Notes under the pieces: generated by a model
Told to the model about the DNA's origin: nothing
Seen by the model: only the letters and a program-made list of their open reading frames with translations
Databases searched by the model: none
Part shown: positions 1-14,250 of the stretch, piece by piece
Layout of the letters: the number at the start of each line of letters is the position of its first letter
Position numbering within the stretch: position 1 is the stretch's first letter
Translations under genes and position numbers: made by a program
NCBI RefSeq assembly: GCF_017565645.3
Contig: NZ_CP086136.1
Span: forward strand, 3,145,501 to 3,209,500
Direction: 5' to 3'
DNA length: 64,000 bases
From: Bradyrhizobium barranii subsp. barranii
Lineage (GTDB): Bacteria > Pseudomonadota > Alphaproteobacteria > Rhizobiales > Xanthobacteraceae

Positions 1-138
1 GATCGGCTGCTGGTCGAGACCAAGATTGCCGCGGCCGGCGGTAAGCGCAAAGCGAAATCACGACTGGCTGGTCTCCTTTACAGTTCGATTCTTGCACCGC
101 ACGGCGGCTACCGACACATATCGCCGGACGCCCATTGA
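1..138 (+). CDS. 3' end of an unidentified gene
   Basis: A reading frame is open from the first base and ends in TGA at 136-138, giving a 45-residue C-terminal tail with a basic stretch (GGKRKAKSRLAG). The start lies outside the window and I do not recognise the family. From 139 to 303 I see no gene. This could be a chance open frame. Confidence 0.3.
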   Translation, partial: DRLLVETKIAAAGGKRKAKSRLAGLLYSSILAPHGGYRHISPDAH

Positions 139-303
139 TCGGCCATGCAGTCACGCTATGCATGCCAACTCGGTGGGCTCCGAAGGGGGGTGACCACCGT
201 GGTGGCTTGCCAACGACGATCCAACTGAGCAAATTGGGTTCGGGGAAGAGAGCTGTCCGCAAATGGTGCTCTCGGCGACGGAACAGATGATGCGACGATC
301 CGC

Positions 304-2505
304 ATGAAACCGCAGCCGGAACCATCAAGTCGGGAAGTTCTTGCTGGCCTTGTTGAGCGCGTCACATACCACAACGACGGGAATGGCTACTGCGTTTTGC
401 GGATCAAGGCGCGCGGCCACCGCGAACTGGTCACTGTAGTCGGGCACGCAGCGGTGATCTCCGCTGGCGAGTGGATTACCGCATCGGGCGAATGGGTCAA
501 TGACCGCACCCATGGCCAACAGTACAGAGCGAAGTTCTTAAAGACCTCGGAACCGACATCACTCGATGGCATCGAGAAATACCTCGGCTCCGGGATGATC
601 CGCGGCATCGGGCCAGTCTATGCCAAGAAGCTGGTGCGCGCCTTCGGTGAGAAGGTGTTCGATACCATCGAGGCGGAGCCCGAACGCCTGCGCGAGGTAA
701 CGGGCATCGGCCCGGTTCGGGCCAACCGGATCACGGCCGCCTGGGCCGAACAGAAGATCGTTCGCGAAATCATGGTCTTCCTGCACAGCAATGGCGTCGG
801 CACAGCGCGGGCGGTGCGCATCTATAAGACCTATGGCGCGGACGCCGTACAGGTCATGACCGAGAACCCCTACCGCCTCGCGCGTGACATTCGCGGCATC
901 GGCTTCAAGACTGCCGACGCAATCGCGATGAAACTCGGCATCGAAAAGACCGCAATGATCCGGGTTCGGGCCGGGATCTCCTATGGGCTGACCGAGGCGA
1001 TGGACGAAGGGCACTGCGGTTTGCCGACGGATGAACTGGTGCCGCTTGCCGAGAAGCTGCTTGAGGTCCCGGTGGAACTGGTGCGCATTGCGCTTGATCT
1101 CGAACGGACAGCAGGCACAGTCATCGCGGACAGCGTAGGCGAAACGTCATGCGTATTTCTGGCGGGCCTGCATCGGGCGGAGCGTTCGATTGCCGAGCGA
1201 CTGATCCGGCTTGCGAATGGCACACTGCCCTGGCCATGGATCAATCCAGACAAGGCACTGCCTTGGGTCGAGCAACGGATCGGGCTTACCCTTGCCGAAA
1301 GCCAGGTCGCTGCGATCCGGCTCGCATTGATGTCCAAAGCGTTGGTCATGACCGGCGGTCCTGGTGTCGGCAAGACCACCATCGTCAAAGGTATTCTCCG
1401 CATTCTCGCAGCAAAGGGCGTGAGGCTCCTGCTATGCGCGCCGACCGGCCGCGCCGCCAAGCGCATGACCGAGGCGACCGGTTTTGAGGCTAGGACGATC
1501 CACCGGCTGCTGGAGGTTGACCCCAAGGGCGGCGGCTTCAAGCGCGGCGAAGACAATCCGCTCGACTGCGACCTGCTTGTTGTCGACGAAGCCTCAATGG
1601 TAGACGTCATGCTGATGCAGTCACTCATCAAGGCCGTGCCAGACAAGTCTGCCCTTTTGATCGTCGGCGACATCGACCAGCTTCCTTCGGTTGGGCCAGG
1701 CCAAGTGCTGGCCGACGTCATCTCATCCGGTGCTGTGCCGGTGGTGCGTCTCACCGAGGTGTTCCGGCAGGCCGCGCAAAGCCGCATCATCATCAGCGCA
1801 CATCGCATCAATCAGGGGGCCATCCCCGATCTCAGCCTGCCCGGCACGGATAGCGATTTCTACTTCGTGCAAGCGAGCGATCCAGAAACCGCCGTACAGC
1901 GTATCATCGAGTTGGTGAAGACACGGATCCCCAATCGCTTCGGCCTCGACCCAATTCGGGACATTCAGGTTCTGTGTCCAATGAACCGGGGCGGCGTCGG
2001 TGCGCGCTCGCTAAACATTGAACTGCAGGCGGCTCTGAACCCCGCCGGCGAGCGCAAGGTCGAACGCTTCGGTTGGACGTTCGCGTCCGGCGACAAAGTG
2101 ATGCAGATCGAAAACGATTACGACAAGGAGGTCTATAACGGTGACATCGGTTATATCGACGATGTCAGTTCCGAAGACAGCGAACTCACCGCAAGCTTCG
2201 ACGGCCGCTCGGTCATTTATGAGTTTGGCGAGCTCGACACGCTGGTGCCGGCTTACGCAGCAACTATCCATAAGAGCCAGGGTTCGGAATACCCTGCCGT
2301 AGTGATCCCGGTGATGACGCAGCACTACACCATGCTGCAACGAAACCTGCTCTATACCGGCGTCACCCGGGGCAAACAACTGGTCGTTCTGGTCGGTCAG
2401 AAGAAAGCCGTTGCCATCGCGGTTCGCAACGTTTCGGGGCGGCGAAGGTGGTCGAAATTGAACGAGTGGCTGGCGTCAAGAATAGCATCGATGCCGACAA
2501 GATGA
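304..2505 (+). CDS. recD2: RecD2-type ATP-dependent DNA helicase
   Basis: A 733-aa superfamily 1B helicase that would unwind DNA 5'-3' using ATP, acting in DNA repair or recombination in the cytoplasm. The length fits RecD2 rather than the RecD subunit of RecBCD. The N-terminal region resembles the RecD2 OB-like part, followed by helix-hairpin-helix units (IRGIGPVYAKKL, EVTGIGPVRANRI, about residues 95-145). Walker A is GGPGVGKTT near residue 351 and Walker B is LLVVDEAS near 425. The C-terminal UvrD-type part has ATIHKSQGSEY near 653 and YTGVTRGK near 687. No recB or recC is nearby. It is the first gene of a same-strand series (125-aa unknown, SNF2, SWIM protein). No strong ribosome site precedes the ATG, so the exact start is less certain than the identity. 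Confidence 0.93.
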   Translation: MKPQPEPSSREVLAGLVERVTYHNDGNGYCVLRIKARGHRELVTVVGHAAVISAGEWITASGEWVNDRTHGQQYRAKFLKTSEPTSLDGIEKYLGSGMIRGIGPVYAKKLVRAFGEKVFDTIEAEPERLREVTGIGPVRANRITAAWAEQKIVREIMVFLHSNGVGTARAVRIYKTYGADAVQVMTENPYRLARDIRGIGFKTADAIAMKLGIEKTAMIRVRAGISYGLTEAMDEGHCGLPTDELVPLAEKLLEVPVELVRIALDLERTAGTVIADSVGETSCVFLAGLHRAERSIAERLIRLANGTLPWPWINPDKALPWVEQRIGLTLAESQVAAIRLALMSKALVMTGGPGVGKTTIVKGILRILAAKGVRLLLCAPTGRAAKRMTEATGFEARTIHRLLEVDPKGGGFKRGEDNPLDCDLLVVDEASMVDVMLMQSLIKAVPDKSALLIVGDIDQLPSVGPGQVLADVISSGAVPVVRLTEVFRQAAQSRIIISAHRINQGAIPDLSLPGTDSDFYFVQASDPETAVQRIIELVKTRIPNRFGLDPIRDIQVLCPMNRGGVGARSLNIELQAALNPAGERKVERFGWTFASGDKVMQIENDYDKEVYNGDIGYIDDVSSEDSELTASFDGRSVIYEFGELDTLVPAYAATIHKSQGSEYPAVVIPVMTQHYTMLQRNLLYTGVTRGKQLVVLVGQKKAVAIAVRNVSGRRRWSKLNEWLASRIASMPTR

Positions 2506-2514
2506 GGGCCGACT

Positions 2515-2892
2515 ATGAATGTGCGCAAAGCGCATAAGATTTGGATCGAACAGTGCGAAGCGGCTCAAACGATCAAGGCGCGATTCGGGCTCACGGCGGC
2601 CTTCGACTACCTTGTCGGTGAGAAGTTGATGAGCTTTACCAGTACTGCCTCCAGACATCCCGACTTCGCGCGGGAACTGCCGCGGTTTGTTTCCGAGGTG
2701 AGACGCATGTTCGCGCCGGATGAGATCGGCACACAGTTGGCGCAAATCGAGCGTTCGCAAAACGAAAGGAATGTCGATGTTTTGGAGGAGGATGATCGTC
2801 TCCCGGAGAGTCCGGCCGCAGTCGCGGAGTGCGTTCAGCAGTTCATGCGGGTCAAGGAGTTGCTGACCGCGCCCATGTTCGGTACTTCGTGA
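2515..2892 (+). CDS. Conserved hypothetical protein, 125 aa
   Basis: I do not recognise a named domain. The protein is soluble, largely helical by composition and mildly acidic, with no signal peptide or membrane segment. It starts 9 nt after the recD2-like stop with GAGGGC just upstream, so it is probably co-transcribed and translationally linked. Its place between RecD2 and SNF2 suggests a helper of those helicases, but that is inference. Confidence 0.7.
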   Translation: MNVRKAHKIWIEQCEAAQTIKARFGLTAAFDYLVGEKLMSFTSTASRHPDFARELPRFVSEVRRMFAPDEIGTQLAQIERSQNERNVDVLEEDDRLPESPAAVAECVQQFMRVKELLTAPMFGTS

Positions 2893-2978
2893 CAGAATGG
2901 CGAATTACATCTCGATGTGGCGCGCGGCTCCCCCCAAAATCGCGGACATCCCCGGTGGGATCATAAGGTCTCACCGTC

Positions 2979-3217
2979 ATGATGACGCTGGAACCCGTTC
3001 TTACCCCGCATGGTTTGCTGACACTGCGACAAACGGCGCAAGCTCCTGCGTTGGAGCCCAATCAGGGCTTGCGGCTGGAGAAAGCATTTTTACGTGGCTC
3101 AGGGCACGGATTGTTGTGGCTCGGCGCCGACGAAGTCGCGACGGTTCTCCCACCGGTGTTGTCGTATTGGCGAGCGCTTGGAATGCGCTACATGACTGCG
3201 CTGTGCGCGCTTCCTTG
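2979..3217 (+). pseudogene. SNF2-family helicase, N-terminal piece (gene broken by IS66)
   Basis: First 79 codons of an SNF2 helicase gene, MMTLEPVLTPHG onward. The frame runs into the left end of IS66 at 3218. Joining 3217 to 8348 (dropping one copy of the 8-bp duplication CTTCCTTG) continues the protein as ALCALP-CVGDGRTKPP without a frame change. This N-terminal part lies outside the ATPase core. The other pieces are at 8348-8823 and 11310-13316. Together 239+476+1988 nt give exactly 901 codons. Confidence 0.85.
3210..3217. repeat. Left 8-bp target duplication of the IS66 element
   Basis: CTTCCTTG immediately before the IS66 terminal GTAAGCG. The same 8 bases follow the right end at 8340-8347. 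Eight-base duplications are the norm for IS66. Confidence 0.93.
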
Positions 3218-3315
3218 GTAAGCGGAGCTTTTCTCCCATTTGATTGACTGGTTTCGCTTCGGCTTTCGCTCTGCGATCCTTGGCTTGTCAGAGAGCCGAG
3301 AGGAGACTGAAGGCG

Positions 3316-3714
3316 ATGGAACAATCGGGGGAGGAAGCCGAAGCTGATGGCTTTGTGGGGAAGCTTACGCGCCGGACGCGTTCTGGAGGCCGGTTATGGT
3401 CTGCGGAGATCAAGGGGCGCGCTGTTTTCGAGAGCATGAAGCCCGACGCCCGGGTATGTGATGTCGCACGGCGTTATGGTGTGAAGGCCCAGCAGTTGAC
3501 GACGTGGCGCAGATTGGCGCGTGCTGGCCGGCTCGCATTGGTCACGGACGACGCGGCGGATTTCGTGTCGATCGAGCTGAGCGATCCAGTGGCGTCAGGC
3601 AAGAGCGAGGGGCCCGTCGAGATTACGATTGGCAAGGTTTCGGTCCGCCTGGATGCGGACGTGTCGGCGGTGCGGATCGCGGAGATCGTGACTGCGATCG
3701 AGCGCGGCGCATGA
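3316..3714 (+). CDS. tnpA: IS66 TnpA accessory protein
   Basis: A 132-aa IS66 Orf1 protein with an N-terminal helix-turn-helix like those of IS3 OrfA (AEIKGRAVFESMKPDARVCD and VARRYGVKAQQLTTWRRLAR). It is needed with TnpB for IS66 transposition. I chose the ATG at 3316 because GAGGAG and AAGG lie just upstream and family members start near here. An in-frame TTG at 3244 would add 24 non-conserved residues. The TGA overlaps the tnpB ATG in an ATGA junction, indicating translational coupling. Confidence 0.88.
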   Translation: MEQSGEEAEADGFVGKLTRRTRSGGRLWSAEIKGRAVFESMKPDARVCDVARRYGVKAQQLTTWRRLARAGRLALVTDDAADFVSIELSDPVASGKSEGPVEITIGKVSVRLDADVSAVRIAEIVTAIERGA

Positions 3715-4019
3715 TCATTCCGGCGCAGGGACTGCGGATTGTGCTTGCTGTGCGTCCTGTTGACTTCCGGTGCGGGCACGACGCGCTGGCCGGTCTTGTG
3801 CAAAACACGCTTGGGCTCGATCCGCATTCGGGCCTGATCGTGGTTTTTCGTTCGAAGCGCGCCGACCGGCTGAAGATTTTGCTATGGGACGGCACGGGCC
3901 TCGTTTTGGTCTACAAGCGCCTTGGCCGCGATGGTCGTTTCGAGTGGCCGCAGATCAGCGACGGCGTCATGCATCTGACGCGCGTGCAGTTCGAAGCGCT
4001 GTTCGATCACCCATGTTGA
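3711..4019 (+). pseudogene. tnpB: IS66 TnpB, truncated by nested element
   Basis: The IS66 Orf2 family is recognisable from MIIPAQGLRIVLAVRPVDFR and the run to HLTRVQFEALF. After codon 98 the frame enters foreign DNA and stops at 4019. The missing tail (FEGLNWKRVGERIV...) lies at 6485-6548 on the other side of the recombinase element. Joining 4003 to 6485 gives 119 codons, the normal TnpB size. TnpB is essential for IS66 transposition, so this copy is presumably dead unless the insert excises. Confidence 0.88.
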
Positions 4020-6094
4020 TGCCCCTCCTTGTTAGGCTGACAGATTCTTAGATCAAGTTGCGCGATGACGTGGTTTCGAAGGTCTCCGATGGCGTGAAGA
4101 ACGGATGGTGTATTCGGGAAGAGATAGGCGCCGCTGGGCTGGCGATCAATTAGCAAACGCTTGGTTCGGATCTGAACATAGAGCCAGTTTACTGGAATCT
4201 CGAGCCTTCGGGCCAGTTCGGGCGGGCTGAGGTATGAGTCGTCATGCTCCCATCGGCTGCGCTGGGCAGTTACCTTGATGGCGGCGGCACGACGGAGCCG
4301 CCCAACGGTGATAGGCAGCACCTTATCGGCGCAACGGGGAGAGCGGTGACCTTCCCGAGTAAGGATTGTGGCGATCTTGTCGTCTGGGACGCCGTCGCGA
4401 GCGAGCGTCAGAAGGCGTTCCCGCATCTCTGTGCCTCGCGTCAATCTGGTGACGGAGTTGACGCTCATCTTCACTTCGAGCTCCGTCACGGCGCCTCCCC
4501 GCCAGACGATCCTAGCCAGGGCCAAGTCGCGCTCACCGCGGTCGAGAACGACCTTTTCGATGAGACATCGCAACAACGCCTTGCGATGCGCATCCGAGAT
4601 AGTCTCGTCACCCCATATCTGCGGGAGGCGGCCGGTGAGGCTGATGACCTTGTCGTTGAGCTCCTTGCTTATGGCCACTTGTGTGATGGCTTTGGGCGGC
4701 GTCTGTCGGGCAAGCGCCTCTTCGGCGGCGCGCACGTCGTTTAGCGCCGCTTCCCATCGACGCTCGAGTTCCGAGGCGACCAACCGATTATCTGGATCAG
4801 CTCGGTTGAACTGCCGTTCGGCGAGCGCCGCCGTGTATCGCTTGCGCTCGAGCTCTCGTTCTGCACTGGAGCGTAGCGCATTGTTCGTCTGCTGCTGCAC
4901 CCGGCGGGAGCGCGACAAGGCATCGAGTTCGGCCGGCGCTAGTGCGGTTAGGAATGCGTCGCCAACGGCTGCATCGATATGGGCGGCGCGGATGTGTTGG
5001 CAGGTTGGCTGACCTTCCTGGGTACGCAGGTGATTGCATACATATTCGCCGCCGCCCTTGTAGCGGACGTACATCTTATGGCCACATCGTGCGCACCAGG
5101 CAATGCCGTGGAGCAGGAGCTCGCCATTGCGAGGCGCGCCGCGGGTTTTGATGCGCATGTATTCGGCTCGGTTATCTCTGATGACGGATCGGATTTTTTC
5201 ATAAATTGGCCAGTCGATATAGGCTGGATATCGATCTTTAACGACGATCCGCCACTCCTCCATCGGCCGCGGAGCCTTTTGTGGCAGGGCCCCCTCCCGC
5301 TTCGGCGGCCGGAAGCGGGTTCGTCCATAGACAAAGGCGCCCGCGTATGCGGGGTTCTTCAAGATCGCCGCGACGGCAGCCAGCGTCGCGCGCGTCCAGC
5401 ACAAATCGCCATATCGATCACGACGCGGCAGTTCCAGGTCACGCTCGTTCAACGCTCGCATGACCTTGGCAACGCTGCGCAGCTGCAGGAATAACTGGAA
5501 GACGAGACCGAGCCGCCCTTGCACGGCCATGTCGGGATCCTTAACGACCACACCGCTCGGGTCCCGCATCAGCCCGATTGGCAGCATAACCGCAAGTTCG
5601 CCGCGTTCGGCTTTGGCCAGCAGGCCGGCGGTCAGCCGGCTGCGGATCGTATGTAGCTCAAGCTCGGAGATCGAACCCTTCAGCCCGAGAAGCAACCGTC
5701 CGTTGGGAGTGCCCGGATCATAGACACCATCGCGGTCGGCGATCAGGCAGCCACGTAGACCACAGATATCCAGGAGCGGATACCAGTCGGTACAATTACG
5801 CGCCAAGCGGGTCACGTCGATCGACAGGATGAGTCCCACTTCACTCAGGCCAACACGGCCAACGAGTTCCTTGAAGCCGTTACGCTGTGCTATAGACGCG
5901 CCGCTCAACCCGAGATCGGCATCAATCACGTCGATGGCCGCCTCACGCCATCCGAGTTCGCGGGCGCGCTGGCGAAGCGCGTATTGAAGGCGCAGGCTCT
6001 CCTGATTGCTTACGACCTGATGGGGCGTCGACTGCCGGATGTAGACTACGGCTTTGCGCGCCAAGTGGCTTGGTGTGACCAGCTCGGACTTCAT
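4007..6094 (-). CDS. Large serine recombinase
   Basis: A 695-aa site-specific recombinase of the resolvase/invertase superfamily. The catalytic serine is S22 in VVYIRQSTPHQ. The catalytic domain covers about residues 10-160 with the usual LARNCTDWYPLLD and DGVYDPGTPNGRLLLGLKG stretches. A recombinase domain follows (about 180-300), then a zinc ribbon with paired cysteines (CARCGHKMY and a later VCNH/CQH). After that comes a coiled-coil-like charged region and a long C-terminal extension. The start at 6094 fits MKSELVTPSHLARKAVVYIR, and the two upstream ORFs overlap it. It most likely moved the element it sits in. Confidence 0.88.
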   Translation of the reverse strand: MKSELVTPSHLARKAVVYIRQSTPHQVVSNQESLRLQYALRQRARELGWREAAIDVIDADLGLSGASIAQRNGFKELVGRVGLSEVGLILSIDVTRLARNCTDWYPLLDICGLRGCLIADRDGVYDPGTPNGRLLLGLKGSISELELHTIRSRLTAGLLAKAERGELAVMLPIGLMRDPSGVVVKDPDMAVQGRLGLVFQLFLQLRSVAKVMRALNERDLELPRRDRYGDLCWTRATLAAVAAILKNPAYAGAFVYGRTRFRPPKREGALPQKAPRPMEEWRIVVKDRYPAYIDWPIYEKIRSVIRDNRAEYMRIKTRGAPRNGELLLHGIAWCARCGHKMYVRYKGGGEYVCNHLRTQEGQPTCQHIRAAHIDAAVGDAFLTALAPAELDALSRSRRVQQQTNNALRSSAERELERKRYTAALAERQFNRADPDNRLVASELERRWEAALNDVRAAEEALARQTPPKAITQVAISKELNDKVISLTGRLPQIWGDETISDAHRKALLRCLIEKVVLDRGERDLALARIVWRGGAVTELEVKMSVNSVTRLTRGTEMRERLLTLARDGVPDDKIATILTREGHRSPRCADKVLPITVGRLRRAAAIKVTAQRSRWEHDDSYLSPPELARRLEIPVNWLYVQIRTKRLLIDRQPSGAYLFPNTPSVLHAIGDLRNHVIAQLDLRICQPNKEGHQHG

Positions 6095-6191
6095 GAGGGA
6101 TCTCCGCCAAAATTGCGGCGACGTCTTCGACGATCTGGCGTCGGAGCGCGGGCGTCAGCGTCGACCAAAGATCGGCTGGATCCATGCTCAT
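5943..6191 (-). CDS. Small ORF overlapping the recombinase start (82 aa)
   Basis: An 82-codon frame starting MSMDPADLWSTLTPALRRQIVEDVAAIL. It overlaps the end of the DUF5372-like ORF by about 100 nt and the start of the recombinase by 152 nt in a different frame. The first 40 residues look protein-like (amphipathic helices). The rest is shadow-like, rich in Pro, Arg and Ser. It resembles the short ORFs that often precede recombinases of this kind, but I cannot prove it is translated. Confidence 0.45.
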   Translation of the reverse strand: MSMDPADLWSTLTPALRRQIVEDVAAILAEIPHEVRAGHTKPLGAQSRSLHPAVDAPSGRKQSGEPAPSIRASPARPRTRMA

Positions 6192-6474
6192 GTGCGTCGG
6201 GACAATCCGCTGTCGATAAAAGCTCGAGTAGAGCCTCCATACTCAGCTTAATCTGATTTGCCTCTTGCTCATAATATTCGATTGCGGTTGCTTGAATCAG
6301 AAGACTGCTTCCTGCGCGATACTCAACTTCATACGAAGCGGGAATGCCTCGGCCTCGCTGACCGATCTTCCTAATCACTCGATATGAGCGCCCCCACAAA
6401 GGATGGTGGGGGTCCCCAACCTCGACCACCTCCGGAAATGATTCGTCAGACTCACTATCAGGGACATTCCTCAA
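6091..6474 (-). CDS. DUF5372-like protein of the recombinase element
   Basis: A 127-aa ORF upstream of the recombinase. HPLWGRSYRVIRKIGQRG and the following beta-rich stretch (YEVEYRAGSSLLIQATAIEYY) look like the DUF5372 family, small proteins found beside serine recombinases in rhizobial mobile elements. Its role is unknown. The last 25 residues are an Arg/Pro-rich tail overlapping the next ORF and are probably less constrained. The 3' end overlaps the recombinase ATG by 4 nt, so the set reads as one operon. Confidence 0.6.
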   Translation of the reverse strand: MRNVPDSESDESFPEVVEVGDPHHPLWGRSYRVIRKIGQRGRGIPASYEVEYRAGSSLLIQATAIEYYEQEANQIKLSMEALLELLSTADCPDAHEHGSSRSLVDADARAPTPDRRRRRRNFGGDPS

Positions 6475-6484
6475 TCCCCTCGTT

Positions 6485-6548
6485 TGAAGGGCTGAACTGG
6501 AAGCGAGTGGGCGAACGGATTGTCGCGACGCCAGCTGCGGCGAACTGA
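6485..6548 (+). pseudogene. tnpB: Displaced 3' end of IS66 tnpB
   Basis: TTTGAAGGG onward reads FEGLNWKRVGERIVATPAAAN then TGA, which is the C-terminus missing from the truncated tnpB at 3711-4003. It has no start codon of its own. It lies 53 nt before tnpC, the normal spacing in IS66. Confidence 0.85.
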
Positions 6549-6601
6549 CTCAGACCCGACAACCTGTTTCGCGCGGGGCTTTGGGATGATAGCTTGCGGA
6601 T

Positions 6602-8227
6602 GTGCCGCCGTCCCCCATTGATCCCGCCCGTCTTGCAGCGCTGCCCGCCGATGTGCGCGCGCTCTTCCGCGCGCAGGAAGCGATGATTGAAGCCGAGCGT
6701 CGTCGCGCAGACGATGAATGCTCGGCGCGCCTTCATGTCGAGAGTGAACTGGCTGCGTCCAAAGAGAGCGTCGAACGCCTCGAACTGCTCGTGAAGGAGT
6801 ACGAGCGCGCACGTTTCGGTAAACGCTCGGAGAAGTTCAATCCCGATCAGATGCAACTGGTTCTCGAGGACATCGAGATTGCCATCGCCGAAGTCCAGGA
6901 ACGCCAGGACGATCGTGCGCGCCGCGCCGGCACGGCGCCGTCCAGCCGCCGGACCAGGCGCGCTGCCCGTGCCTTTCCCGCGCACCTGCCGCGCATCGAG
7001 CAGGTGATCGAACCCGAGAACCTCGAGTGTCCCTGCGGCTGCGGCCGGATGGTCCAGATCGGCGAGGATCGCTCCCGCCGTCTCGATGTCATGGCCGCCC
7101 AGTATCGTGTGATCGAGACGGTGCGACCGCGCTACGCCTGCGCAAAGGGCTGCACCGGTGTTGCTCAGGCGCCGGCGCCCGCCCATCTCGTGGAGGGTGG
7201 CATCCCCACCGAGGCGCTGCTGGCGCAGGTGGCGGTCGCCAAGTTCAGCGAGCACATGCCACTCTATCGTCAGTCGCAGGTTCTGGCCCGGCATGGCATC
7301 TTCATCGATCGCGCCGTTCTGGCAGACTGGATGGGAACGGTCGCCTTCCACCTCGCGCCGCTGGTCGAGCGCATGAGCGTCGTGATGAAGCAATCGGGCC
7401 GCTTGTTCATGGACGAGACCAGGGCGCCTGTGCTCGATCCGGGCCGGGGCCGAACGAAGACCGGCTATCTGTGGGCTGTCCTGCGCGACGATCGCGGCCA
7501 CGGCGGCGCTGATCCACCAATCGTGGTCTACCACTACGCGCCAGGACGCGGTGGTGACCATGCTGAGCGCATCCTCGAGGGCTTCGACGGCATCCTTCAG
7601 GTCGACGGATACCAGGGCTATCATCGGCTCGCACGGCCCAAGCGCAAAGGCGGCGTGCCGCTGCGGCTGGCCGCATGTTGGTCCCACTCAAGGCGCAAGA
7701 TCATCGCAGCGACTCCGAAAGCCGGCTCACCCATCGCCGAAGCCGTTCTCGCGCGCATCGCCGCACTCTATGCGATCGAGAAGGAGATCCGTGGCGCCGA
7801 CGCCCCGGCTCGGCAAACGACCCGTAACGAGCGATCACGGCCGCTCGTCGCTGAACTCGAGAGGTTTCTGCGCGAGCAAGCCGCTCGCCTGTCGCCGGGC
7901 AGCGAGATGGGCAAGGCGATCGCCTATCTCCTGAACCATTGGGATGGCCTCACCTTGTTTCTCGACGATGGTTGCGTTGAGATGGACACCAATCCCGTCG
8001 AAAATCAAATCAGGCCGCTGACTCTGACGCGTAAAAATAGTTTATTTGCTGGTCACGACGAAGGTGGTCGTTCATGGGCGCGCATAGCTTCGCTCATCGC
8101 CACCTGCAAAATCAACAGCGTGGAGCCCTACGTCTGGATGAAAGCGACGCTCAAAGCGATCGCAACCGGTCACCCGCAGTCCCGGATCGACGAGCTCCTG
8201 CCCTGGTCGTTCGGCCGCACCTCGTAA
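6602..8227 (+). CDS. tnpC: IS66 TnpC transposase
   Basis: A 541-aa DDE transposase of IS66. In order: an N-terminal leucine-rich coiled coil (RAQEAMIEAERRRADDE), KRSEKFNPDQ, a zinc-finger-like CPCGCGRM, then the catalytic core with aspartates in LFMDETRAP and ILQVDGYQGYH and glutamate in NPVENQIRPL. The start is GTG at 6602. The gene looks complete, so it could still act on other IS66 copies even though tnpB here is broken. Confidence 0.92.
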   Translation: MPPSPIDPARLAALPADVRALFRAQEAMIEAERRRADDECSARLHVESELAASKESVERLELLVKEYERARFGKRSEKFNPDQMQLVLEDIEIAIAEVQERQDDRARRAGTAPSSRRTRRAARAFPAHLPRIEQVIEPENLECPCGCGRMVQIGEDRSRRLDVMAAQYRVIETVRPRYACAKGCTGVAQAPAPAHLVEGGIPTEALLAQVAVAKFSEHMPLYRQSQVLARHGIFIDRAVLADWMGTVAFHLAPLVERMSVVMKQSGRLFMDETRAPVLDPGRGRTKTGYLWAVLRDDRGHGGADPPIVVYHYAPGRGGDHAERILEGFDGILQVDGYQGYHRLARPKRKGGVPLRLAACWSHSRRKIIAATPKAGSPIAEAVLARIAALYAIEKEIRGADAPARQTTRNERSRPLVAELERFLREQAARLSPGSEMGKAIAYLLNHWDGLTLFLDDGCVEMDTNPVENQIRPLTLTRKNSLFAGHDEGGRSWARIASLIATCKINSVEPYVWMKATLKAIATGHPQSRIDELLPWSFGRTS

Positions 8228-8339
8228 TTCTCCGTCGTTGCCGCCTCCATACCCCCCGCCAACGATTTGCAAACACGTTGATCAACAGACTGCAATCCCC
8301 ACGCCAAACCTTTGCGAGTGGGACGCGAACGTCGCTTAC

Positions 8340-8347
8340 CTTCCTTG
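8340..8347. repeat. Right 8-bp target duplication of the IS66 element
   Basis: CTTCCTTG directly follows the terminal CGCTTAC of IS66 and matches 3210-3217 exactly. Confidence 0.93.
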
Positions 8348-8823
8348 TGTTGGAGACGGCCGTACCAAGCCGCCTGTGCCGATCCCCGCCGATGGCGAGT
8401 TGGACACGATGGCAGCGGCTGTTCCGCCGATGACCGGCGCGGAATACCTGACGACGTCTGTCCTGGCCAATCTTTGGCAAGGTATGGATGCGGCCTTTGA
8501 TGCCGAGTTGGTGCAAGCCAAGCTCTCCCTGCAGGAGTTCCTCAAGAGCCGTCATCCGGCTTGGAATTTGGTTGGGCGCGTTCATTTCAACCTCGCGGAG
8601 AACCGGAAGGACGATGAAGCCCCGTTCGCGTTTCTTGCGACCTACACGACCCGACTCTCTGCTGAGGCCAAGGCCCAGCATCTGCCGCTTGGCAAAGCCT
8701 TGCAGGAGTATTCCGGTGCGAGGAACCGCCAACGCCTGCTCTCGCTGCTGATGCCCGTCCAGCGCGCCGCCGAGAGCAGCCCTTGGTTGAAGACGTTGGT
8801 CAATGCCGGCGATATCTTTCACC
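8348..8823 (+). pseudogene. SNF2-family helicase, middle piece
   Basis: Second fragment of the SNF2 helicase gene, between the IS66 right end and the left IS6 copy. It reads VGDGRTKPPVPIPADGELDT through LKTLVNAGDIFH and encodes part of the N-terminal non-ATPase region. The last 8 bases, CTTTCACC (8816-8823), are the IS6 target. Their reverse complement GGTGAAAG at 13298-13305 marks where the gene continues on the opposite strand (IFH-PLRWSPQQ). The open frame runs on into IS6 for a few codons (QVNELERRRG) before stopping. Confidence 0.85.
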
Positions 8824-9648
8824 GGTACCGTCAAGTTAACGAATTGGAACGGCGGAGGGGGTAGACGAGCGGCATGCGGACTGCCAAGGACCCTCTTTAT
8901 CGCCGCCATCGCTTCCCACCGGAAGTGATCAGCTATGCCGTTTGGTTGTATTTCCGGTTTCCCTTAAGCTTGCGCATGGTCGAGGAAATGCTGGCGGCGC
9001 GTGGCATTGGCGTGACCTATGAAACCGTGCGCCAGTGGGGACGGAAATTCGGCAAGCCGTTCTCCGATCGGATCCGCCAGCGTGCACCCGCTCGCGGTGA
9101 CAAATGGCATCTGGACGAAGTCGTTATCTCGATCGCGGGCGAACAACATTGGCTCTGGCGCGCTGTCGACCAGAATGGCTTCGTTCTCGACGTCTTGATC
9201 CAGCGCCGAAGAGACTCGCGCGCTGCCCAGCGGCTCATGAAGAAGCTCTTGAAATCCGCCGGCACGCCGCCGCGCGTGATGATCACGGACAAGCTCCGTT
9301 CGTACGGCGCTGCGAGGGCGAAGATGGGCTTTCACGTCGAACATCGCCAGCACAAAGCTCTCAACAATCGGGCCGAGAATTCTCATCAGCCGACGCGGCG
9401 ACGCGAGCGGATCATGAAGCGTTTCAAATCGTCCCATCAGGCTCAACGGTTTCTGTCAGTTCACGATCAGGTCGCGAACCTTTTCCACATCCCCTATCCC
9501 GGAGCCGCCACCGCCGACTTCCGTCGTGCTTCGCGCGAGCGAGCCTTTGCGACTTGGCGCGAGATCTCCACAACAAGCGCCATCGCGAGCTCTCGAACCT
9601 TTGAGAAGCGCCTCCTTCGGCTCGGCGGTCGATTAAGTTGACGATGCC
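8824..9648 (+). mobile_element. IS6-family element, copy 1
   Basis: An 825-bp element with imperfect terminal inverted repeats (GGTACCGTCAAGTTAA at the left, GGCATCGTCAACTTAA read inward from the right) and one transposase gene. Copy 2 is the same length in inverted orientation at 13306-14130 and encodes an identical protein. The left flank CTTTCACC is the mirror image of the copy 2 left flank. This is the mark of a replicative intramolecular transposition that inverted the DNA between the copies. Confidence 0.93.
8874..9641 (+). CDS. IS6-family transposase, copy 1
   Basis: A 255-aa DDE transposase of the IS6/IS26 group. It has an N-terminal HTH region (MVEEMLAARGIGVTYETVRQW) and catalytic residues in KWHLDEVVI, VMITDKLRSYG and NNRAENSHQPTR. 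The protein is identical to that of copy 2, so the duplication is recent. It is complete and presumably active, since the rearrangement it made is still unscarred. Confidence 0.95.
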   Translation: MRTAKDPLYRRHRFPPEVISYAVWLYFRFPLSLRMVEEMLAARGIGVTYETVRQWGRKFGKPFSDRIRQRAPARGDKWHLDEVVISIAGEQHWLWRAVDQNGFVLDVLIQRRRDSRAAQRLMKKLLKSAGTPPRVMITDKLRSYGAARAKMGFHVEHRQHKALNNRAENSHQPTRRRERIMKRFKSSHQAQRFLSVHDQVANLFHIPYPGAATADFRRASRERAFATWREISTTSAIASSRTFEKRLLRLGGRLS

Positions 9649-9827
9649 ATGGCCACTGATGCTATCTCGGGTTTCTGATGCCCAAGCCTACGGCTGCATA
9701 CAACCTAGACATTTGCAGCAGTCATTTTCTACTCAGGGCGCGACGAAACCGCGCGCTCTCGTAAAGCGGTTGCAAGGCTCGACGCTGACGGAAGACACGG
9801 TGAATCGGCGTGGGATCCGGACGCCGA

Positions 9828-9865
9828 TCGGCGTCCCAAGTGCTTGTCGGCGTCCCAAGTGCTTG
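9828..9865. repeat. 19-bp perfect tandem duplication in a gene-free stretch
   Basis: TCGGCGTCCCAAGTGCTTG occurs twice head to tail. It lies in the roughly 390-bp stretch 9649-10041, between IS6 copy 1 and a small ORF, in which I see no convincing gene. Confidence 0.8.
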
Positions 9866-10041
9866 ATTGACTTCGCGCGTGCGGGGTCAATTCAGCGTCG
9901 ATTCACAAACAGGCAGAGCGCTTGTCGTCTCCCTCACACCTGTGTGCGTGCCGCGCACGATACCACTTGCAGCGGCCGTTCTCGATTATCAGAAGCACCG
10001 AGTGAAGAAGCTCAAGAAGCCGGGCCGGAGGTAGCATAGAA

Positions 10042-10275
10042 ATGGCGCACGCGATTATCCGAGGAAAGAATGGTCGCCGATACGAAGTGGATTTTGACGA
10101 CGCGCCGGTACGCGTCGAAGTTCATGCCAGTGAGGAGACCGTCGAGATTTTTGTGGAGGCAGATTTTGAAACGCACCCGGAAGAACGGCGACGTTTTGCG
10201 ATAATCAGCATCCCCCGCCACCTGTTCAGCGAGGCCACGGGTCGGACTGCGCGACGCGCAGCGAAGGATCGTTAA
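10042..10275 (+). CDS. Hypothetical protein, 77 aa
   Basis: I do not recognise the family. The short soluble protein (MAHAIIRGKNGRRYEVDFDD) is rich in beta-type hydrophobic/charged alternation, with a basic C-terminus. GGAGG at 10026-10030 lies 11 nt before the ATG, a reasonable ribosome site. It lies in the inverted segment and converges on the SWIM gene. Before the inversion it would have followed that gene on the opposite strand. Confidence 0.55.
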   Translation: MAHAIIRGKNGRRYEVDFDDAPVRVEVHASEETVEIFVEADFETHPEERRRFAIISIPRHLFSEATGRTARRAAKDR

Positions 10276-10388
10276 TGCCGCTGCCGCGCACTCTGTGGCG
10301 TCTCCCCCTTCAGGCCGCAGCCATGCGCTCCCTACCGCGGTAGCGGTTTAGTGCAACATTCATTCCGGCAACGTCGGCCCGACATAGT

Positions 10389-11309
10389 TCAACAGCGATC
10401 GGGACATCCCCGAGTGCGCCGTTTGCTGGCACTTGCTCGGGTTGTCTTTTTCGTTCCCGAACTGGCCCGAGTCGCACGATGTAAGGCGACATCTGTCTTC
10501 GCTGCTCGTTTGGTCTTTCTGGCAGATATCTTGCCTTTTTGCGCCTTGGACTGTTGGGGTCTCTTTGAGACTGTGAACGCAGGATTTGGCGTATGGGAAG
10601 TTTCGGCCATCTCCAGCCCGAATAGAGCGGCGACATCGCCTTCATCAAGCACCTTCGCCGCGCCTGGCGCCGTTGTTAGCGGAGAATCCTGTCCAGCGCT
10701 GGCGAGCATTTCAGTTTCATCCACATCACGCAGCACAAAAAGAAGCTGAGGCTTTTCATCTAGCCGGGCGCCGACACCATACAGTGCTGCCGCAACGTGC
10801 TTGCACATGTCCGCCCAGTCCGGACAGCTGCAGGACAGCTTGATTTCCGTCGGCGACGGAAACAGGCCGTCACCCTCTCGACAGACCCGGTCCATCACGC
10901 CTTTCGCCAAGCGGCCCTGCAGGAGCTCAACTAGCGAATCGACGGTCCCGGCGCAGTCCCGACAGATGGATTTCCAGCGTGCCCGCGTAACCGGTGCAAT
11001 GACAATCTTGATTTGGTAGAGCTCAGACCCGGCGACCATTGCCGAGATCTCGCCCTTGGCAATTTGCAGGTCGATAACGGAGCCGTTTCGAACATAGGTC
11101 CGGCCGCGCGGCAAGCGGTTCTCATAGTCGCTGTAGCGTTCAAGGTTGACGCACCAAGATCTGCCCCAGAAGCTCTTGGTAATTGTGCGGCCCTCGATCC
11201 TCACGGGCGCAACCGATCGTCCCTGCTTCTTGAGCTTGGCCAACTTGCGTTCTGCCTGTCGCCGCTTCTCAGCTACTGGCACGTAAGCATGCCACCCGTA
11301 GTAGCTCAT
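10389..11309 (-). CDS. SWIM zinc-finger protein
   Basis: A 306-aa protein with a SWIM zinc finger, CSCPDWADMCKH near residue 160 (pattern CxCx6CxH), a fold that binds DNA or protein partners. The N-terminal part (MSYYGWHAYVPVAEKRRQAE, FWGRSWCVNLERYSDYENRL) is typical of bacterial SWIM proteins paired with SNF2 helicases. The C-terminal 60 residues are a Lys/Arg/Ala/Ser-rich tail likely to touch nucleic acid. Its ATG directly abuts the SNF2 stop (TGA-ATG), so the two are translationally coupled. The role of the pair is unknown, with chromatin or DNA remodelling, repair or defence being plausible. Confidence 0.85.
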   Translation of the reverse strand: MSYYGWHAYVPVAEKRRQAERKLAKLKKQGRSVAPVRIEGRTITKSFWGRSWCVNLERYSDYENRLPRGRTYVRNGSVIDLQIAKGEISAMVAGSELYQIKIVIAPVTRARWKSICRDCAGTVDSLVELLQGRLAKGVMDRVCREGDGLFPSPTEIKLSCSCPDWADMCKHVAAALYGVGARLDEKPQLLFVLRDVDETEMLASAGQDSPLTTAPGAAKVLDEGDVAALFGLEMAETSHTPNPAFTVSKRPQQSKAQKGKISARKTKRAAKTDVALHRATRASSGTKKTTRASASKRRTRGCPDRC

Positions 11310-13316
11310 TCATCCCACTTCCTTCATCGCCGCGCCCAAATCGAGAGTCACGAGTCTAAGCAACTCCTCATCTTTCATCTCAGTCAACAGGATGTCAGCT
11401 CCGCCGCTAAGAAAATCCCCAGCCAATTGTTTCTTCGACTCAATCATATGGTCGATCTTTTCCTCCACGGTGCCGCGACAAACGAACTTGTGCACAAGCA
11501 CGTTCTTGGTCTGTCCGATCCGGAAGGCACGGTCGGTGGCTTGGTTTTCGACGGCCGGATTCCACCACCTGTCGAAATGAATGACATGCGAGGCCGCTGT
11601 GAGATTGAGCCCGGTGCCGCCTGCTTTGACCGAGAGCACGAAGAACGGGACGTCTTCGTCTTCCTGAAATTGGCGCACCAGGCCCTTGCGCTTCTTAACC
11701 TCTGTCTCACCATGCAGGACGAGGCCGGGCCTTCCGAATACGGAGCCCAGGAACGCCACTAGTGGCGCCGTTGTCTCCTTGAACTGGGTGAAGATAAGTG
11801 CCTTCTCCTGCCGGGCGGCAACCACTTCCGCGATGTCGCGCAGACGCACAAGCTTACCGCTATCCTCCTCATTCCACGCACCGTCGCCGAGCCACTGTGA
11901 TGGATGGTTGCAGATCTGCTTCAAACGCATGAGAAAAGCTAGGACGATGCCTCTCCGCTTTATTCCATCGACATCTTCGAGATGGCCGGCCAGTTCCGCC
12001 ACTGCTTGCTGATAAAGCGCCGCCTGCTTGCGGCTCAAGGGGCAGAAGGTTTTCACCTCGGTCTTGTCGGGCAGGTCGGCAATGATGCTCTTGTCGGTCT
12101 TCAGCCGTCGCAGGACATAGGGGCGCACCAGTTCGCGGAGCGGACCGTAAGGGTTATGTGGCCGGTCGGAGAGGCGTTTGACGAATGCCGAAAACTCCTT
12201 CGACGATCCCAACAGGCCAGGATTGATGAAGTCGAAGATCGACCATAGGTCGCCGAGCCGATTCTCGATGGGCGTGCCGGTCAGCGCAATGCGCATTTCT
12301 GCCTTGAGCCTCTTGACCGATTTTGTCTGCTTAGCGCCCGGGTTCTTGATGGCCTGTGCTTCATCGAGCACCACAAACCGCCATGATGTAGTTTCTAGCC
12401 AAGGCGTACGCGTCAGAAAGCCGTAGCTCGTGATTACGAGATCGACATCTGCGCATCTGTCCGCACTGTAAGTGTTCAGTTTCTCGGACGGCGCAGCCGA
12501 TGGATGGACCACGACTGTTTTCAAGCTTGGCGCAAATCGGGAAATCTCGGCGGCCCAATTGGCTAACAACGAGGCGGGGGCTACGAGCAGGCACGGTTTC
12601 CGTGCCATGTCCTCATTCTTGATCACCAGCAGCAGCGACAACACCTGGATGGTTTTGCCGAGCCCCATATCGTCGGCAAGGCAAGCCCCAAGCTTGAGCT
12701 GCGTTAGCAGATAGAGCCATTGCACACCCGACTGCTGATAGGGTCGCAGCGTACCCTGAAAATATTGACCGGGGTCGACCCGCATGAGCCAATCGGGATG
12801 GCGCAAGGTCGCCAGCGTCTCCGCCAGCCAGGGGCCGGCAACGGTCTGGCTCCAATCGATGTCGGCTGGTGCGGCAGTTTTATCTCCGGCAATGCCAGCC
12901 CCAGCCAGCAGACGCATCGCCTCACCGAACGAAAGACCATCGGCGGCGGCGCGGCGCTCGATGGCCTCAAATTGCTCGAGTGTGCGATGCAGTCGTTCAT
13001 GATCGACCTCGGCCCACTTGCCACGGATTAAGGTCAATCCATCGGAATGCGCCAGGAGTCGCTTGATCTCGGCCTTCGAGAGGCTTTCGCCCTCGAGCGT
13101 CACCTCCATTCGGAAGTCGAGCAGCGCGTCCATCCCCAGCTGTGATGGCGCATTGCCCCCGACCGTTGCTTTCACTTGCGGGCGTGCGGGGTGGTTCATG
13201 CGCCAACTCGCTGGCATTCGCACGACCACCCCGGCGCTTTCGATTGCGGGAACATCCTTCAGGAATTGCAGCGCCTGTTGTGGGCTCCAGCGCAGCGGGT
13301 GAAAGGGCATCGTCAA
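11310..13316 (-). CDS. SNF2-family helicase, C-terminal ATPase portion (5' end replaced by IS6)
   Basis: The complete SNF2/Rad54-type ATPase core: LADDMGLGKTIQVLSLL (motif I), VVLDEAQAIKN (motif II), IALTGTPIENRLGDLWS (motif III), LNLTAASHVIHFDRWWNPAVE (motif V) and QATDRAFRIGQTK (motif VI). Upstream is part of a bacterial SNF2-associated domain (MDALLDFRMEVTLEGESLS). The real gene begins at 2979. Here the frame enters from IS6 copy 2, whose end donates in-frame ATGs (MTMP-FHPLRW). A 668-aa protein lacking about 235 N-terminal residues could therefore still be made. It is coupled to the SWIM gene directly downstream. Confidence 0.9.
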   Translation of the reverse strand: MTMPFHPLRWSPQQALQFLKDVPAIESAGVVVRMPASWRMNHPARPQVKATVGGNAPSQLGMDALLDFRMEVTLEGESLSKAEIKRLLAHSDGLTLIRGKWAEVDHERLHRTLEQFEAIERRAAADGLSFGEAMRLLAGAGIAGDKTAAPADIDWSQTVAGPWLAETLATLRHPDWLMRVDPGQYFQGTLRPYQQSGVQWLYLLTQLKLGACLADDMGLGKTIQVLSLLLVIKNEDMARKPCLLVAPASLLANWAAEISRFAPSLKTVVVHPSAAPSEKLNTYSADRCADVDLVITSYGFLTRTPWLETTSWRFVVLDEAQAIKNPGAKQTKSVKRLKAEMRIALTGTPIENRLGDLWSIFDFINPGLLGSSKEFSAFVKRLSDRPHNPYGPLRELVRPYVLRRLKTDKSIIADLPDKTEVKTFCPLSRKQAALYQQAVAELAGHLEDVDGIKRRGIVLAFLMRLKQICNHPSQWLGDGAWNEEDSGKLVRLRDIAEVVAARQEKALIFTQFKETTAPLVAFLGSVFGRPGLVLHGETEVKKRKGLVRQFQEDEDVPFFVLSVKAGGTGLNLTAASHVIHFDRWWNPAVENQATDRAFRIGQTKNVLVHKFVCRGTVEEKIDHMIESKKQLAGDFLSGGADILLTEMKDEELLRLVTLDLGAAMKEVG
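13298..13305. repeat. Mirror copy of the IS6 target site
   Basis: GGTGAAAG is the exact reverse complement of CTTTCACC at 8816-8823, and each abuts an IS6 copy. Inverted rather than direct duplication shows that the segment 9649-13305 was flipped by intramolecular IS6 transposition. The other flanks (ATGGCCAC at 9649, CTTCCGAC at 14131) do not match, so the donor site had no intact duplication. Confidence 0.9.
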
Positions 13317-14130
13317 CTTAATCGACCGCCGAGCCGAAGGAGGCGCTTCTCAAAGGTTCGAGAGCTCGCGATGGCGCTTGTTGTGGAGATCTCGCGCCAA
13401 GTCGCAAAGGCTCGCTCGCGCGAAGCACGACGGAAGTCGGCGGTGGCGGCTCCGGGATAGGGGATGTGGAAAAGGTTCGCGACCTGATCGTGAACTGACA
13501 GAAACCGTTGAGCCTGATGGGACGATTTGAAACGCTTCATGATCCGCTCGCGTCGCCGCGTCGGCTGATGAGAATTCTCGGCCCGATTGTTGAGAGCTTT
13601 GTGCTGGCGATGTTCGACGTGAAAGCCCATCTTCGCCCTCGCAGCGCCGTACGAACGGAGCTTGTCCGTGATCATCACGCGCGGCGGCGTGCCGGCGGAT
13701 TTCAAGAGCTTCTTCATGAGCCGCTGGGCAGCGCGCGAGTCTCTTCGGCGCTGGATCAAGACGTCGAGAACGAAGCCATTCTGGTCGACAGCGCGCCAGA
13801 GCCAATGTTGTTCGCCCGCGATCGAGATAACGACTTCGTCCAGATGCCATTTGTCACCGCGAGCGGGTGCACGCTGGCGGATCCGATCGGAGAACGGCTT
13901 GCCGAATTTCCGTCCCCACTGGCGCACGGTTTCATAGGTCACGCCAATGCCACGCGCCGCCAGCATTTCCTCGACCATGCGCAAGCTTAAGGGAAACCGG
14001 AAATACAACCAAACGGCATAGCTGATCACTTCCGGTGGGAAGCGATGGCGGCGATAAAGAGGGTCCTTGGCAGTCCGCATGCCGCTCGTCTACCCCCTCC
14101 GCCGTTCCAATTCGTTAACTTGACGGTACC
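13306..14130 (-). mobile_element. IS6-family element, copy 2 (inverted)
   Basis: An 825-bp copy with the same ends as copy 1 but in the opposite orientation. It bounds the inverted segment on its right. Together the copies leave a pair of long, protein-identical inverted repeats about 3.7 kb apart, through which RecA could flip the segment back and forth. Confidence 0.93.
13313..14080 (-). CDS. IS6-family transposase, copy 2
   Basis: A 255-aa transposase with the same sequence as copy 1: DDE residues in WHLDEVVI, MITDKLRSY and NRAENSHQ. It is complete. Its stop lies 8 bp inside the element end that abuts the SNF2 fragment. Confidence 0.95.
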   Translation of the reverse strand: MRTAKDPLYRRHRFPPEVISYAVWLYFRFPLSLRMVEEMLAARGIGVTYETVRQWGRKFGKPFSDRIRQRAPARGDKWHLDEVVISIAGEQHWLWRAVDQNGFVLDVLIQRRRDSRAAQRLMKKLLKSAGTPPRVMITDKLRSYGAARAKMGFHVEHRQHKALNNRAENSHQPTRRRERIMKRFKSSHQAQRFLSVHDQVANLFHIPYPGAATADFRRASRERAFATWREISTTSAIASSRTFEKRLLRLGGRLS

Positions 14131-14250
14131 CTTCCGACCGGTGGGCCATCCTCGATCAAGTAGTAGGGACAGCGCTTCCCTGTGTATGCGTGGGGCCTTT
14201 CAAGCGCCGAGTCTCGCCCGCACTGCCTGCGATCTGGCACTCATAATTCC

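Follow-up and report, generated by a model that had tools for sequence, protein, structure and literature searches.

Two described systems come closest to the element reported here. Large serine recombinase elements (Durrant et al., 2022, PMC10083194, passages of the main text) insert within a target gene, at a stretch that is conserved, and certain streptococcal integrative and conjugative elements (ICEs) have a serine integrase that targets a gene of another mobile element, namely traG of another ICE (PMC4701971, parts of the text). Here we analyse a stretch of 64,000 nucleotides of Bradyrhizobium barranii subsp. barranii (C1:3145501-3209500, hereafter the window), in which an insertion sequence (IS) of the IS66 family, itself carrying a serine-recombinase element in its tnpB gene, lies within a gene for a SNF2-type helicase. 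The genome comprises 11.4 Mb on 4 contigs (C1 to C4), the largest of which, C1, measures 10.69 Mb.

The nested element differs from those in the cited passages of Durrant et al. in being only ~2.5 kb long with hardly any cargo, and in having as its target the gene of another mobile element that then becomes its vehicle; no mention of IS genes as recombinase targets was found in those main-text passages. The ICEs, as far as the cited parts describe them, are conjugative elements with integrase triplets, and their host is an ICE and not a co-transposing IS. Our literature search, covering open-licence PubMed Central mostly in the form of search listings, found no description of a serine-recombinase element in IS66 tnpB. 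The nested element looks like a site-specific serine-recombinase element whose standard target is a gene of another mobile element, and it appears to be new. In the reading we prefer, to which we give a probability of about 0.87, the SNF2 gene was broken recently by the insertion of an IS66 composite after codon 79 and by an IS6 event, and the composite is an IS66 that carries a tnpB-targeting recombinase element and moves with it as a unit.

Structure and transposition of the IS66 composite

The insert in the SNF2 gene is organised as follows (positions are those of the window):

3210..3217, second copy 8340-8347, unstranded: 8-bp target duplication CTTCCTTG flanking the composite
3218..8339, + strand: IS66-family composite with serine-recombinase element in tnpB, 5,122 bp
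3244..3714, + strand: IS66 tnpA (NF047595, 69.4 bits, slightly below the cut-off of 74)
3711..4019, + strand: IS66 tnpB with replaced 3' end, native to 4003, then codons of the nested element and a stop
4004..6482, - strand: body of the nested element, core TT at 4002-4003 and 6483-6484, 2,481 bp with one core
4007..6094, - strand: large serine recombinase, 695 aa (Pfam: Resolvase PF00239, Recombinase PF07508, zinc ribbon PF13408)
6091..6474, - strand: 127-aa open frame that overlaps the start of the recombinase gene and recurs in many relatives of the element
6483..6548, + strand: severed 3' tail of tnpB with the motif F-E-G-L-N-W
6602..8227, + strand: intact IS66 tnpC transposase gene (PF03050, 342.6 bits, 2.4e-102; NF033517, 444.6 against a cut-off of 180)

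IS66 elements share tnpA, tnpB and tnpC and make 8-bp duplications. An IS66-type TnpC and the 8-bp duplication are found here and an intact tnpB is not, since this gene is cut at 4003 by the nested element, and we therefore call the unit an IS66 composite. An earlier note on this DNA, made from its letters alone, had placed the IS66 cut at these coordinates, which hold, as does the family assignment; its plain IS66 gives way to the composite, the nested element having been overlooked. The truncated TnpB still spans positions 1-89 of the 90 of its model (NF033819, 103.9 bits).

In spite of the cut the composite moves. Thirteen full-length copies were listed in the own genome, where 40 of 201 candidates were scored, and 11 of them are flanked by perfect 8-bp duplications that are all different, from which it follows that the 5,122-bp composite transposes as one unit. 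The window's composite differs from the 12 other listed copies by 2 to 7 mismatches and at most 2 gap positions, those with duplications being 99.8-100% identical to it, and composites of 5.1 kb with 99.7-99.9% identity occur on B. japonicum plasmids (H48-H52).

Each listed full-length copy of this IS66 in the own genome carries the nested element, and an exact empty tnpB site was not found there at up to 3 mismatches. The former is also what would be seen if the serine-recombinase stretch were an accessory gene inherited with the IS66 lineage and not a separate mobile element. This is very improbable, however, as empty copies of the same IS66 exist: of 195 sampled genomes of the genus, 7 have empty tnpB sites, at 21 places in all, and the left 786 bp of the surrounding IS66, compared in 6 of these 7 genomes, are 99-100% identical in five and 96% in one. 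Against an accessory gene speak also the near-identical elements in IS66s whose TnpB is only 37-54% identical to that of the window, and the occurrence of the element in both orientations.

With the nested element thus taken as a separate unit, the empty sites in relatives fix its ends, and the same ends were found in other hosts. Of the features of a large serine recombinase integrative element it has the three recombinase domains, attL and attR sharing a short core, and a known empty attB; its recombinase would catalyse integration and excision. The domain DUF4368, by which the TndX-like multi-targeting class is recognised, was not found in the 695-aa protein with Pfam. The 127-aa open frame has no Pfam match and is 92-100% identical in seven relatives (L165-L171).

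Five shortened IS66 copies in the own genome (L139-L143) lack the nested element together with a variable stretch to its left:

L139, C1:5406943-5409512
L140, C1:2513550-2515424
L141, C1:4259236-4261850
L142, C3:82148-84762
L143, C3:57587-60031

Their right breakpoints all fall within ~15 bp outside the right end of the element (query 3272-3282), and L141 and L142 have one common deletion with different 8-bp flank repeats. Possibly these copies stem from aberrant excision. An in-frame tnpB finds no support in them: L139 shows a frame change and L140 has no tnpB start, and the string searched for gave no match in L141-L143.

Site specificity and change of host

The closest relatives of the element sit in clearly different IS66s: in L166-L169 the recombinases are 94-96% identical to the window's, and the host TnpB proteins only 47, 54, 45 and 37%. 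A tnpB gene abuts the element in all 28 loci (17 from the list of recombinase matches and 11 on plasmids, taken from the 53 plasmid records at this level) whose recombinase is at least 60% identical; the plasmid loci belong to Bradyrhizobium, Rhizobium, Sinorhizobium, Pararhizobium, Microvirga, Niveispirillum and Roseovarius. Junctions were read at codon level in 27 of the loci, L180 being left out. The left cut lies directly after tnpB codon 96 or 97 in 24 of them, L170 shows the same cut in another reading of its junctions, and an alignment extended by two codons brings L216 and L217 into line as well. On the right side the sequence opens with x-x-G-(I/L/M)-x-W in 21 of the 27, mostly as L-E-G-I-D-W or L-S-G-I-D-W. 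Both element orientations were seen (L174, L175, L178, L215, L219, L228), and the core was read as TT, AT or CT in the closest relatives (L165-L170), with L171 fitting imperfectly. In a recombinase tree of 26 rows, which included neither L182 nor L227, the tnpB label requires a single change. Matches at E <= 1e-130 occurred in 3 of 385 sampled genomes of the class, own genome included, so that the close recombinase family looks rare outside the genus in that sample. Taken together, the element is probably site-specific at the G-(I/L/M)-x-W codons of IS66 tnpB and seems to change its IS66 hosts.

In the mechanism we propose, the recombinase would integrate a circular form of the element where the DNA codes for a conserved motif close to the TnpB end (F-E-G-L-N-W in the window), with strand exchange at the 2-bp core. 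As almost all of the TnpB domain is spared by the cut, the truncated TnpB would probably suffice, and the host IS66 would keep transposing and carry the element along. The recombinase could then let the element switch between IS66 lineages.

Several points weigh against this reading. Two of the 13 listed full-length composites (L126 and L128) have no matching duplications, and TnpB is possibly supplied in trans by another IS66. The 60% line is self-chosen; if loci are counted by their best piece, L182 and L227 are included and the tally becomes 28 of 30. Both lie in a recombinase gene and not in tnpB. The identity of L182 is 61% over residues 1-413 (58% in a second comparison); that of L227 is 66% within residues 1-229 and 49.8% for the protein as a whole. 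The 28 loci are not all independent, as L174 and L175 show the same junctions, and the tally covers 11 of the 53 plasmid records and does not include at least 6 listed matches of at least 60% that had no locus. The right-hand motif pattern is missed in 6 of the 27 loci (L183, L216, L217, L218, L220, L221), and the branch that sets the tnpB rows apart in the tree has modest support (90/59).

The broken SNF2 gene

The SNF2 gene lies in three pieces on two strands, as the earlier note had proposed, and the joined pieces are collinear with an intact copy on C2:

2979..3217, + strand: SNF2 piece 1, which comprises codons 1-79 plus 2 nt and contains the target duplication once
8340..8823, + strand: SNF2 piece 2, new sequence 8348-8823, contains both duplications
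8824..9648, + strand: IS6-family copy 1, transposase 8874-9641 (NF033587, 235.9 bits against 125)
9649..13305, - strand: inverted segment with SNF2 piece 3, the SWIM gene and the remainder of the cassette, collinear with C2 once flipped
11310..13305, - strand: SNF2 piece 3 (Pfam: DUF3670 PF12419, SNF2 PF00176, Helicase_C PF00271)
13306..14130, - strand: IS6-family copy 2, whose end gives a TTG/ATG in frame with SNF2 piece 3

Placed end to end, the three pieces (239+476+1988 nt) are confirmed to give 2703 nt, i.e., 901 codons with the sole stop at the end. Two intact SNF2 copies were found, one with a coding sequence of 901 codons (open frame 904 aa) on the 140-kb C4 and one of 900 codons (open frame 903 aa) on the 318-kb C2, each 99% identical to the 668-aa part of the broken gene. 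Since the coding sequence on C4 also has 901 codons, the claim that no base was lost is borne out relative to that copy. The C2 copy aligns to window positions 1-3215, 8340-8823 and 13305..9907 as a single unbroken run. One detail needs correction: position 13316, given as the end of a piece, lies within the IS6 end, and the SNF2 sequence proper begins at 13305.

A natural gene end at 3217 or start at 13316 is ruled out by full-length homologous loci. Among the best 80 of 586 confirmed loci, 78 match the N-terminal part and the remaining two run off contig ends, so that none of the 80 naturally starts at 13316. The same 80 loci bear on the question of whether the truncated frame might still be expressed and functional without its N-terminal 235 residues. 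This frame (668 aa) retains DUF3670, SNF2 and Helicase_C, has its TTG/ATG start supplied by the end of IS6 copy 2, where the TTG at 13316 overlaps the stop codon of the IS6 transposase, and is directly followed by the SWIM gene; yet none of the best 80 loci is an example of a short form, which leaves a working truncated protein improbable.

The breaks are recent, as had also been proposed, and this is well supported: among 9 aligned copies the broken gene has 2 private codons (both nonsynonymous), like one of its intact sisters (2 in the C2 copy, 0 in the C4 copy), and the sisters are uninterrupted at both joins, which agrees with a gene that was intact shortly before. One of the two private bases of the broken gene sits in both copies of the IS66 target duplication (3216 and 8346; codon 80 of the join) and hence predates the IS66 insertion or arose with it.

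The IS6-bounded inversion

Both IS6 copies measure 825 bp, are 100% identical and inverted, and have matching ends; their IS6-type transposase and terminal inverted repeats place them in the IS6 family. The sequence CTTTCACC stands at 8816-8823, just outside copy 1, and as its reverse complement at 13298-13305, on the inward flank of copy 2, as would be expected if an inversion had had its target in the SNF2 gene. The proposal that an IS6-bounded inversion cuts the gene thus stands, with CTTTCACC inverted at both edges. The arrangement shares with IS26-like intramolecular replicative transposition, as outlined in parts of PMC7986276, the IS6 transposase, the 8-bp duplication, the inversion bounded by two copies and one target flank per copy; it shows no notable difference from the scheme in those parts. 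The donor-side duplication is missing here, not having been found among the copy flanks on inspection by eye, and according to the same parts of PMC7986276 it may be missing after intramolecular transposition. Of 83 IS6 candidates in the own genome 40 were scored, and none of the 13 full-length copies listed has an 8-bp direct-repeat duplication; the window locus has its two 8-bp copies in inverted orientation, in keeping with an inversion.

Instead of one replicative step, IS6 may have inserted twice independently, once into the SNF2 gene with ordinary direct duplications, and the inverted 825-bp copies may then have undergone homologous recombination with each other, in which case the segment may still flip. 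We regard this as possible, if the less probable route. The copies are identical and inverted, which fits recombination, un-flipping 9649-13305 would put CTTTCACC in direct orientation on either side of copy 1, and inversions by intramolecular transposition and by recombination share one end product. The outer flanks of the donor copy (9649-9656 and 14131-14138), on the other hand, mismatch as a duplication; the donor IS6 was therefore no simple recent insertion with intact duplications, and recombination survives this test. An assembly flip at the inverted repeats, with the SNF2 gene cut by IS66 and a plain IS6 on one strand, is unlikely. Inverted repeats that exceed short-read length cannot be oriented by short reads; the 4 contigs and the 10.69 Mb of the largest suggest long reads, which is uninformative on the 825-bp repeat itself. 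Replicative step, later recombination and assembly flip would all lead to the same end product.

The motif TTGACG, resembling a -35 box, points outward at both IS6 ends (window 8824-8840, 9630-9648, 13306-13316).

Relatives of the nested element at other targets

In a sister lineage, with recombinases ~50-58% identical overall, five elements (L179, L182, L224, L227, L229) split another large serine recombinase gene right after a Y-D codon pair in its catalytic domain, and a sixth, L225, lies less clearly at nearly the same place; the Y-D insertion was read at codon level in 5 of the 6 loci. The corresponding group of the recombinase tree ("recgene") has 5 rows, of which 4 (L179, L224, L225, L229) have recombinase-gene flanks, and its single-change result includes the mislabelled L232, in which codon-level reading found no such flanks. 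The neighbour of L232 is a weak InsA-like zinc-ribbon frame (19.7 bits, under the cut-off of 26.1).

More distant relatives, ~37-41% identical and with several copies per genome, adjoin mobile genes, by adjacency only: IS21 istB in L236, a gene with rve and HTH_21 domains, read as IS3-type orfB, in L239, an IS91-type transposase gene in L242 and a phage-integrase-type gene in L245. It seems somewhat more probable than the opposite that an alphaproteobacterial clade of ~2.5-kb serine-recombinase elements lives off other mobile elements, each lineage having settled on the DNA of a conserved motif in a mobile gene and using its host as a vehicle. An exception is L226 (2264-5774), a relative (54%) with an annotated part of a dctP-type TRAP transporter gene on either side, so that not every relative targets a mobile gene.

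Origin of the SNF2 cassette and its sister copies

The broken gene belongs to a cassette of a recD2-type gene, a small open frame, SNF2 and a SWIM gene. Its members outside the SNF2 gene itself are:

304..2505, + strand: recD2-type helicase gene (TIGR01448, 884.7 bits against a cut-off of 500), in the same order on pUSDA123-3
2515..2892, + strand: 125-aa open frame, annotated as a hypothetical protein on pUSDA123-3
10389..11309, - strand: SWIM zinc-finger gene, partner of SNF2 (PF04434, 22.5 against 19.6)

On plasmid pUSDA123-3 of B. japonicum USDA 123 the annotated order is recD2-like, hypothetical, DEAD/DEAH helicase and SWIM. The 125-aa frame has no match in Pfam, PADLOC or NCBIfam. A 12-kb stretch around the C2 copy is matched by 62 plasmid records, 51 of them from Bradyrhizobium, and C2 and C4 are therefore probably plasmids; C1 is presumably the Bradyrhizobium chromosome. 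The cassette is otherwise located on plasmids and is found here in the largest contig. The C1 block begins to match C2 246 bp before the window's left edge and does so up to 9649, at which point the IS6 copy ends it, and the stretch 9649-9906 is more diverged from C2 than the rest of the block. A ~105-bp stretch that coincides with the left edge of the plasmid-like block (L087 9649-9754) recurs, at 96% identity, at window 25445-25548.

The SNF2 gene is present in 11 of 195 sampled genomes of the genus (E <= 1e-100, up to 4 candidates scored per genome), and is hence accessory. Genome G017 has, beside a full-length SNF2 relative, another copy that is broken into two overlapping frames (C1:8688506-8690973; L161, L163). 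Loss of the last working copy is ruled out in our strain by the two intact copies on C2 and C4, and because of them the loss of the C1 copy is probably tolerable.

The SNF2/SWIM pair and defence families

A SWIM gene follows SNF2 downstream on the same strand in 76 of the 80 homologous loci, which span several phyla. The loci without a SWIM match are L034, L042, L059 and L075, of which L034 is not obviously cut off. The window has the same genes in the same order, DUF3670, SNF2 and Helicase_C with SWIM directly downstream, and differs in that its copy is broken. Long partial matches of SNF2 to ZorD and DpdE were obtained with PADLOC (no cut-offs), as expected of SNF2 ATPases. A role as a Zorya, Dpd or DISARM defence helicase was rejected, since the NCBIfam defence models score below their equivalog cut-offs (ZorD 294.8/1500, DpdE 46.4/500, DrmD 106.7/950). 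Our guess is that SNF2 and SWIM are a putative DNA translocase and its DNA-binding partner in plasmid or genome maintenance.

Biological significance

Taken alone, the break of the SNF2 gene is ordinary IS damage to a redundant gene of plasmid type, and with its intact sisters it offers a clean case of recent IS-driven decay of such a gene. It is outweighed in importance by the nested element. If our reading of that element is true, protein-coding conservation in a transposon gene would provide a portable landing site, and one recombinase could colonise transposon lineages whose TnpB proteins are only 37-54% identical to the window's. The passenger would be spread by its host IS rather than silence it, which would fit the presence of the passenger in all listed full-length IS66 copies. 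The finding would thereby point to recombinases that have ready-made sites in many genomes.

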